Assembly (NCBI RefSeq): GCF_029910095.1
Contig: NZ_CP094526.1
Coordinates: 1,550,001-1,614,000 of the forward strand
Direction of reading: 5' to 3'
Source of the DNA: Bradyrhizobium sp. ISRA464
GTDB taxonomy: Bacteria > Pseudomonadota > Alphaproteobacteria > Rhizobiales > Xanthobacteraceae
Length of the DNA: 64,000 nucleotides
This document shows positions 26,160 to 28,297 of the stretch, one piece after another. Below the pieces are notes generated by a model. It saw nothing but the letters and a program-made list of their open reading frames with translations, was not told the DNA's origin and did not search any database. How positions within the stretch are numbered: the stretch's first letter is position 1; every line of letters begins with the position of its first letter. Made by a program: the position numbers and the translations under genes.

Positions 26160-26450
26160 CAACTGACGAGTGCGCATGAGGCGGACGGTGAAGTCGTGCA
26201 GGCCTGACGCCCTAGTGGCAGGTGTCTCATCAGCAAGAGGCAAGACCTCTCGCTGATGACGGTGACAACAAAGCCCAGTCTCGCCGGGGAGAGCACGTAT
26301 AAGCCGTAAAACCATCGCGCAGGGAAAGCCGGAGTGTTTTCCGGTTTCACCTGTGGTCCTACCCCTGTGCTTTTTTTGTTGCACAGGGCCCATGGGTGCG
26401 ATCGGCACCCGGCTTTCCCTGCGCCCTCTGTTAAGGGAGAGGGCGAAATG
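26160..26450. repeat. Structured intergenic element with large palindrome
   Basis: About 290 bases of non-coding character between ubiA and the insertion sequence. Its core (26317-26424) is bounded by perfect 16-base arms GCGCAGGGAAAGCCGG and CCGGCTTTCCCTGCGC. Inside are the hairpin CCCTGTGC / GCACAGGG (26363-26388) with a T-rich loop, and GGGTGC / GGCACCC. A second hairpin region upstream (CATCAGC...GCTGATG, about 26229-26258) adds to it. I recognise the sequence type as one often miscalled as short ORFs in Bradyrhizobium genomes. Any RNA role is unproven. Confidence 0.6.
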
Positions 26451-26528
26451 AGATGCAAACCTCGGACGCATCGCGCCGCGAGAATGCGGATGTACGACTC
26501 ACAGAATGCGCTACACACACACGGCGTC

Positions 26529-26548
26529 GTCCTGGCGAAAGCCAGGAC
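26529..26548. repeat. REP-like hairpin, intact copy
   Basis: GTCCTGGC-GAAA-GCCAGGAC, a perfect 8-base stem with tetraloop. An inverted, interrupted copy lies about 80 bases further right (26624-26635 plus 28183-28194), with a shared central segment, so together they form a two-hairpin unit. Confidence 0.85.
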
Positions 26549-26635
26549 CCATTACCCCAAATATTGATTGTTGCGCGACGCTGGGGCCACGATCCCGTTC
26601 ATCTGCAACTGTGGTGGTTATGGGTCCTGGCTTTC

Positions 26636-28182
26636 CAGGCCGTGCAAAAATGTCGGCGCGGTGCCTGGAGCTGAGAACGAGGAGGGCACCCTCAAGCTGG
26701 ACAGGGCCGGAGCGCCTTGAGCAGAGCGGGTACGCTCTTGATGGCAATCAGTCTCTTGAGGTTGTAGGCGATGATGCTGAGCGCCAGTTCGGCTTTGGCT
26801 TTGCGCAATCCGCGGACGAGGAAGCGCGGGGTTCCCATCAACCATTTGATGGTCGCGAACGGATGCTCGGCGACTTCGCGGCGGAGCCTCATCCAGCTTG
26901 GATCGGCGATCGCCCGCTGATGCATGGCCTCGCGGTCATCGTCATGGAAGCCGCGCACGATGATCCGCTGCGCCGCCTCGGTGCATTGCGATTTCAGCGG
27001 ACAGGCCGGGCAGGCTTGCGTCCGATATTCCTTCTTCTGTTTGGTGTGGGAGGTCTTGAAGAGTTGGAGGACCTCACCGGCAGGGCAACCCCAGCTGTCG
27101 CTCTCTCGGGCGTAGCTGAACTGATCGCGGCTGAAGTATTGCTTGCCCTTCGGATTGACCCGCTCGCCATGCGGTACGATCGCGGTGATCCCGTCCTGCT
27201 CACATTGCTTGCCGTGCGCGCCGTTGGCATAGCCGGTATCGGCAACGACGCTCACCTGATCGGCGCCGACGGCCGCCTTGCCCTGCCGGGCCATCGGGTG
27301 GAGTTGCTGCAGATCGTTGCCCTCGTTGGTCAGATCGAACGCAACGATCATGTCATGCTGGGCATCGACCGCGATCTGTGCATTGTAGGCAACCTGATGG
27401 CCGCGCGGCGTGCGCATGAGCTTGGCCTCAGGCTCACCCAGCACCTTCTGCTTGAGCCCTTCCTGAACCAGCTGTTCGGCCTGCTGCTGCAATTCAGCCC
27501 GCTGAGCCCTCAACGCGGCAAGGGCTGCAGCCACGTCGGTCTTGGTCGGCTCAAGCGGCGTCTCCTCGGCGTCGGCCTCATCCATCGCCGTCAGGTAGTC
27601 GGCGATCTTGCGCTCGATCGCCGCATCCCGCTCCGCAAGCTTCGCCTTGGTGATCACCTGCTTGCGGCTCGCCGCCGCAGCAATCTTGCTCCCGTCGATC
27701 GCCAGGACTTCGCCTCCAAACACCGATTGCTCGCGGCAGAACTTTATAAAGGCCCGGCAGACCCCGGCAATCGCCTCAGGATAGTCCTTGCGGAAGTCCG
27801 CAATGGTCTTGAACACCGGCCTCACCCGGTTGATCAGCCAGAACACTTCGACATTGCGCCGAGCCTCACGCTCAAGCCGCCGGCTCGAACGCATCTGGTT
27901 CAGATACCCGTAGACATAAAGCTTCAACAGATCGCGCGGATCGTAAGGCGGCCGCCCCGTCGCCTCCGCCTCAACGTTCGAGAAACCCAGCCCGGCAAGG
28001 TCCAGGCTGTCCACAAAACCGTCAATGACGCGCACCGCGCTGTCTGCCGCGATCACCTCGTCCAACGTCTCGGGATACAACGTCGCCTGATAGCGCGATT
28101 GGCCAACGATGTGTGCCATCCTGCCCCCGAATCCGTCTCTGCCTCCCAAATCCAACATCAGACCGTGGTTTTTGCACGGCCT
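26636..28182 (-). mobile_element. IS1182-type insertion sequence, complete
   Basis: 1,547 bases with perfect 15-base terminal inverted repeats: CAGGCCGTGCAAAAA (26636-26650) and TTTTTGCACGGCCTG (28168-28182). The flanks carry a 4-base duplication TTTC (26632-26635 and 28183-28186). The flanks joined without the element read GTCCTGGC-TTTC-GCCAGGAC, a hairpin like the one at 26529, so the element entered the tetraloop. It has one intact transposase gene. The family name rests on the transposase; boundaries are read directly. Confidence 0.9.
26692..28119 (-). CDS. IS1182 family transposase
   Basis: About 475 residues from ATG 28119 (MAHIVGQSRYQ). It cuts and joins the element ends. DDE residues fit D142 (VLAIDGSKI), D294 (VVADTGYANG) and E418 (VAEHPFATIKW). 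A coiled-coil insertion lies at about 160-225, and four cysteines (345, 370, 373, 379) could bind zinc, as in other IS1182 transposases. The N-terminal domain has the YDPRDLLKLYVYGYLNQMRSSRRLE helix-turn-helix. No frameshift or internal stop is seen, so it may be functional. Confidence 0.93.
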   Translation of the reverse strand: MAHIVGQSRYQATLYPETLDEVIAADSAVRVIDGFVDSLDLAGLGFSNVEAEATGRPPYDPRDLLKLYVYGYLNQMRSSRRLEREARRNVEVFWLINRVRPVFKTIADFRKDYPEAIAGVCRAFIKFCREQSVFGGEVLAIDGSKIAAAASRKQVITKAKLAERDAAIERKIADYLTAMDEADAEETPLEPTKTDVAAALAALRAQRAELQQQAEQLVQEGLKQKVLGEPEAKLMRTPRGHQVAYNAQIAVDAQHDMIVAFDLTNEGNDLQQLHPMARQGKAAVGADQVSVVADTGYANGAHGKQCEQDGITAIVPHGERVNPKGKQYFSRDQFSYARESDSWGCPAGEVLQLFKTSHTKQKKEYRTQACPACPLKSQCTEAAQRIIVRGFHDDDREAMHQRAIADPSWMRLRREVAEHPFATIKWLMGTPRFLVRGLRKAKAELALSIIAYNLKRLIAIKSVPALLKALRPCPA

Positions 28183-28297
28183 GTTTCGCCAGGACGACGA
28201 ACGACGAGTCCAGTTCACAACACAAGCCGCGGAGTATGGATCCCGGCCTGCGCCAGGACGACCGCGATTGCGAGCGCGCGGCGTGCAAGCCGTGAAC

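Follow-up and report, generated by a model that had tools for sequence, protein, structure and literature searches.

All seven full copies of an IS1182-family insertion sequence (IS) in the genome of Bradyrhizobium sp. ISRA464 sit in the loop of one and the same family of repeated hairpins, which is broken at the same point each time. The stems are retained at all seven sites, and at six of them the IS is flanked by a perfect 4-bp duplication. This suggests that mirror-image form is at least part of what the transposase selects in a target, and from the sequence comparisons we consider it rather probable that a DDE-type transposase of the IS1182 family inserts here on the axis of two-fold symmetry in a palindrome. 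The copy with which the analysis began lies in a stretch of 64,000 nucleotides, referred to below as the window. Its features are as follows (read from the sequence unless another basis is given).

26529 to 26548, plus strand: intact first hairpin of a double-hairpin repeat, GTCCTGGC-GAAA-GCCAGGAC, that is, GTCCTGGCGAAAGCCAGGAC
26624 to 26631, plus strand: left arm GTCCTGGC of the second hairpin, which is split by the IS; pairs with 28188 to 28195
26632 to 26635, plus strand: left-hand TTTC of the loop duplication; the orthologous empty site has a single TTTC
26636 to 28183, minus strand: IS1182-family insertion sequence, 1548 bp long, with its transposase encoded on the minus strand (from its ends, its length and the seven genome copies)
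26636 to 26650, plus strand: inverted repeat CAGGCCGTGCAAAAA at the low-coordinate end
26692 to 28119, minus strand: transposase of 475 amino acids (NCBIfam NF033551; Pfam DDE_Tnp_1_6, DUF772 and DDE_Tnp_1; translation)
28169 to 28183, plus strand: inverted repeat TTTTTGCACGGCCTG at the high-coordinate end
28184 to 28187, plus strand: right-hand TTTC of the loop duplication
28188 to 28195, plus strand: right arm GCCAGGAC of the second hairpin

The terminal inverted repeats match at 15 of 15 bp, and the IS splits the loop of GTCCTGGC-TTTC-GCCAGGAC, leaving TTTC on each flank. This is what a sequence-only reading of the window had described, and it can be read directly from the letters; of the span given there, 26624 to 28194, the start is right, while the right arm runs one base further, to 28195. 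The intact hairpin is separated by 75 bases from the start of the split one, and without the IS the whole double-hairpin repeat measures about 123 bp (26525 to 26635 plus 28188 to 28199). Its paired hairpins resemble a BIME. A 16-bp perfect inverted repeat is also present in the window, at 26317 to 26332 and 26409 to 26424. The transposase, in addition to its Pfam matches, scores 372.4 bits against the IS1182 model NF033551 (cut-off, 270), so the family assignment made at the outset holds. It carries the motifs AIDGSK at 140, VADTGYANG at 292 and EHPFATIKWL at 418, which we take to be its putative DDE catalytic motifs.

The seven copies, all 100% identical after rounding, are distributed over a one-contig genome of 8.46 Mb, and their near-identity points to recent spread or activity. 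The six matched duplications are, in locus orientation, GAAG, GAAA, CTTC, TTTC, TTTC and TTTC; the seventh copy (L007) has TGTC on its left and GAAA on its right. Read relative to the IS, the loops of the six (L001 to L006) are CTTC, GAAA, CTTC, TTTC, GAAA and TTTC, i.e., both orientations occur. The genome contains 61 matches to the unsplit pattern GTCNYGGCN4GCCRNGAC and no match to the reversed pattern used as a control, and since all seven IS copies sit at the loop of this repeat, their association with it is beyond chance. The proposed specificity for a repeated hairpin loop is thus shared by every copy, and the unrelated flanks that had been named as evidence against it were looked for and not found at the other copies of this IS. 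The repeats had also been viewed as safe targets, which they may be: no open reading frame of at least 120 amino acids spans the joined site at three of the seven loci, and frames of 156 to 202 amino acids span it at the other four.

We then examined the orthologous loci in related genomes. At one of them (L185, genome G004) the whole double hairpin is present with a single TTTC and no IS, and the orthologous site in G010 is likewise free of the IS, with a different loop. The left flank of the unequal copy, L007, has a counterpart in all nine relatives searched. Next to that counterpart the right flank gave only short repeat matches, and in three relatives it matches solely as a dispersed repeat. 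Because the left flank is found in relatives while the right one does not adjoin it there and is a dispersed repeat, recombination between IS copies would be a fair explanation for the unequal flanks. Recombination has also been proposed in PMC1525189 for three ISRm22 copies with unequal duplications. The dispersed repeat, up to about 380 bp long (L007, 3200 to 3590), has 13 to 18 matches in each of G003, G004 and G010, and judged by eye the window at 26300 to 26430 resembles it.

At E <= 1e-135 relatives of the window element occurred in 3 of the 265 genomes of the genus, its own genome counted, and a class-level search of 385 genomes gave a match in its own genome alone; at looser limits a relative was present in 22 genomes of 248 at family level (E <= 1e-60) and in 20 of 297 at order level (E <= 1e-80). 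A search of the window protein against genome contigs and viral contigs confirmed no relative. The relative in G110 (89% identity) splits GTCCCTGC-GAAC-GCAGGCAC, with five contiguous pairs and seven of eight overall. That in G1155 (68%) is cut at a contig end, and the side that can be read has GTCCCTGC-GAAG; the readable side of a fragment in G149 has CTTC-GCCAGGAC. The single readable side of each of the two truncated relatives (L306 and L032), which are out of sample, thus fits. Of the two copies in G286 (66%), one lies in GATGCCCGC-GGTC-GCGGGCAT and the other at GTCC with no clear stem, while both copies in G479 (59%) lie in CCTTCTCCC-loop-GGGAGAAGG, with the loops GAGC and GCAT. Locus L178 has a perfect duplication yet fails the stem test. 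Within the window clade, stems of at least 6 bp were found in 10 of 13 rows (17% with permuted flanks), the rows being non-independent because seven of them are copies in one repeat family.

A more distant clade comes from Pseudomonas; it is about 45% identical to the window protein and was gathered from plasmids and genome contigs. At 14 of its 19 distinct readable sites the duplication lies at the centre of a perfect stem (6 bp or longer), compared with only 6% when flanks were permuted among the sites; the mean stem was 8.16 versus 2.91, and none of 2,000 permutations reached as high. Many of these hairpins are terminator-like, with A and T tracts, and unrelated to the repeat of the window; their arms vary between sites and are complementary within a site. 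L250, L255, L259, L263 and L272 have perfect duplications and failed the stem test, the stem of L259 being bulged. The idea that the arrangement would recur in relatives therefore stands for several split loops and not for these 5 of 19 sites or for one of the two G286 copies. An acidobacterial element (L276) splits a perfect hairpin, its ends being readable in two ways, and the terminator-like site L079, with a duplication of 7 or 5 bp, has a strict stem score of just 3. These counts come from 65 partly overlapping loci, those that were too short (nine) or without credible ends (many) being outside them; 30 of the 49 loci of one set were examined, the remaining 19 being mostly partial matches. 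In the site table, the rows for L231 and L245 were joined to those of L224 and L232, which represent the same sites, and L028 and L029 to other rows of their element (IS2, below); L262 and L136 have no usable ends.

The length of the duplication can differ between hairpins. For a single IS, of whose 1585 bases the 1546 that were compared are identical, the duplication is CATG at one hairpin and ATATT at a second. Among 12 Pseudomonas-clade hairpin sites with intact duplications, all six 4-nucleotide loops gave 4 bp, and the six odd loops gave 5 bp in three cases and 4 bp in three. A rule that the duplication equals the loop length was thus borne out only weakly, the odd loops being evenly split. 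Some loop copies are unequal: those of L251 differ by one base, whereas L261 has CCTC and TTAG and L304 has TACG and CGAG around stems that pair, the latter with one mismatch. Recombination between copies fits L007, whose possible partners lie in targets of one stem sequence, better than these Pseudomonas-type cases with their diverse stems; another reading of L261 and L304 is entry into an 8-nucleotide loop without duplication.

The same genome contains further IS1182-family elements. Two of them (L157 to L167, with eight and three copies) duplicate CTAG amid unrelated flanks and were used as a control: none of the 11 copies is surrounded by a stem. Another element, IS2 (L008 to L030; 1683 bp, 23 copies), targets a different short repeat, TTGCCC-GAC-GG(C)GCAA, and duplicates GAC/GTC. 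It was considered as a loop case and rejected, because this site pairs only with a bulge; in the test for uninterrupted stems none of its 21 rows reached 6, and permuted flanks scored higher in 1,983 of 2,000 runs. At L016/L017, L022/L023 and L026 the outer copies of its duplication read GTC at one end and GAC at the opposite end. IS2 also forms five head-to-tail tandem pairs (near 221798, 2144830, 2530766, 3839050 and 3898648), with a spacing of 1686 bp, one 3-bp spacer and a 1103-amino-acid open frame running through both copies. Finally, a single divergent IS1182-like element (L168, 5706371 to 5711690) is flanked by AGCT duplications, with AGCT at the centre of a larger palindrome whose outer arms are AATGCGAC and GTCGCATT.

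When target types were labelled by hand on a 51-row tree, the loop type required 5 changes, compared with a mean of 14.9 after shuffling, and the CTAG and GAC types each formed one clade; the tree has several long branches and its deep forks are unsure. Loop targeting is real and common to several clades. It is not family-wide, because the CTAG relatives scored 0 of 11.

The observations made directly are insertion in the loop, a duplication of that loop, 4 bp long or, at some sites in relatives, 5 bp, retention of the stems and the occurrence of both orientations. A mechanism that would produce them starts with paired IS ends capturing a palindrome able to extrude as a hairpin or cruciform. 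The two strands would be joined near the borders between stem and loop, and gap repair would copy the loop while the stem remains. The transposase would additionally read a C-loop-G context, and the window element would be further confined to the GTCCYGGC/GCCRGGAC repeat family, i.e., to dozens of landing sites. Extended to several IS1182 clades (this one, the Pseudomonas one and perhaps the acidobacterial one), the proposal is a tentative one, to which we give somewhat less than even weight: their DDE transposases would recognise extruded hairpins, integrate near the stem-loop borders and duplicate the loop, so that an identical element leaves 4 or 5 bp depending on the hairpin, and sister clades would have turned the dyad into GGTC, GAC and CTAG sites.

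The strongest competitor, which we regard as unlikely though a serious contender, is that a symmetric duplex sequence, a C-N4-G core with half-sites, is read without extrusion, the hairpins being incidental to the symmetry. In the loop-splitting clades the loop is preceded by C at 31 of 31 sites and followed by G at 28 of 31, hairpin or not, while 3 of the 11 background hairpins in the vicinity of the Pseudomonas copies have such a C-G closure. Sequence is therefore read as well. The restriction of the window IS to one repeat family agrees with a duplex reading too: the window has 10 perfect hairpins (stem of at least 8 bp, 4-nucleotide loop), and despite the nine outside the target repeat all seven copies use that single family. 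In the GGTC sister clade (18 loci, e.g., L080, L082 and L100), the sites, which were picked for a GGTC or GACC duplication, have a degenerate palindromic consensus of approximately ATGTCCGCTTTG-GGTC-AAAAGCGG. This consensus is a dyad, with a mean pairing of 0.37 in register versus 0.19 to 0.28 when slid, and yet within single sites the two flanks are no more complementary than permuted ones (690 of 5,000), as a duplex reading would have it. The C-G context, the choice of a single repeat and the GGTC clade speak against a purely structural rule. Evidence in the other direction comes from the Pseudomonas clade: arms that change from site to site and still complement each other favour recognition of the palindrome as such, as far as sequence can tell.

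A folded single-stranded substrate was the suggestion of the sequence-only reading, and the use of single-stranded hairpins, for example on the lagging-strand template and in the manner of IS200/IS605, would account for a hairpin being the target. We now think it very improbable. Elements of the IS200/IS605 family have an HUH transposase, no inverted ends and no target duplication, whereas the window IS has DDE-type domains, perfect inverted ends and a 4-bp loop duplication, and the presence of the loop in both orientations relative to the IS disfavours strand-specific use. Less probable still is that the IS and the repeat form a composite mobile unit that includes the hairpin halves. All seven copies are indeed flanked by the same repeat halves, but this reading is contradicted by the empty orthologous repeat, and the 61 IS-free repeat places, the variable loops and outer flanks among the copies and the unrelated stems in relatives stand against it as well. 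Least probable of all is random insertion with survival only in harmless hairpins, since repeats and terminators, mostly extragenic as they are, could shelter an IS, but selection would not fix copies at a single nucleotide of the dyad, and CTAG-type relatives in the same genome show no such placement.

Insertion at the symmetry axis with retention of the stem can be compared with several known systems. IS1272/TnSha1 of staphylococci, also of the IS1182 family, target inverted repeats or hairpins of varied sequence, often terminators, as the window IS targets inverted repeats; they remove the stem-loop wholly or partly and leave no duplication (PMC5678879, PMC4923244), in contrast to the kept stems and duplications seen here. 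Loop duplication does appear, as one conceivable pathway, in the legend to Fig. 13 of PMC5678879. Siguier et al. 2015, as cited in both papers, state that palindromes are the targets of some IS1182 members, and according to PMC5678879 they did so without detailed data. ISPsy8 (IS3 family) and ISRm22 (IS4 family) are REP-specific; their insertions lie on the symmetry axis and produce short duplications, which resembles the window IS, but they have transposases of other families and duplications of 3 and 6 bp (PMC1525189). The IS110-family elements ISPa11, ISPpu9, ISPpu10 and ISRm19 insert specifically into repeated extragenic palindromes; their transposases are unrelated, and the first three insert within the first bases of the REP (PMC1525189). 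Copies of the type 1 REP-specific IS of that paper interrupt one repeat at an identical position, and so do those of the window IS. An IS1182 element with a direct repeat of 4 bp appears in a table of PMC3196728, and nothing on hairpin targets was found in the passages covered. In the portions of the open-licence literature available, no report of loop duplication by an IS1182 element was found.

Hairpin targeting is thus known for the family from IS1272, and on the sources available the stem-keeping, loop-duplicating mode is a new variant. If true, the element would be a conservative counterpart to IS1272, keeping the stem and duplicating the loop, and palindrome targeting would be tied to several clades of one family of DDE transposases. 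As the seven near-identical copies point to recent activity, shape-based choice of target by a DDE transposase is directly testable here. Such a choice may also account for the limited harm that these elements do as they spread, by way of repeated hairpins and terminators.
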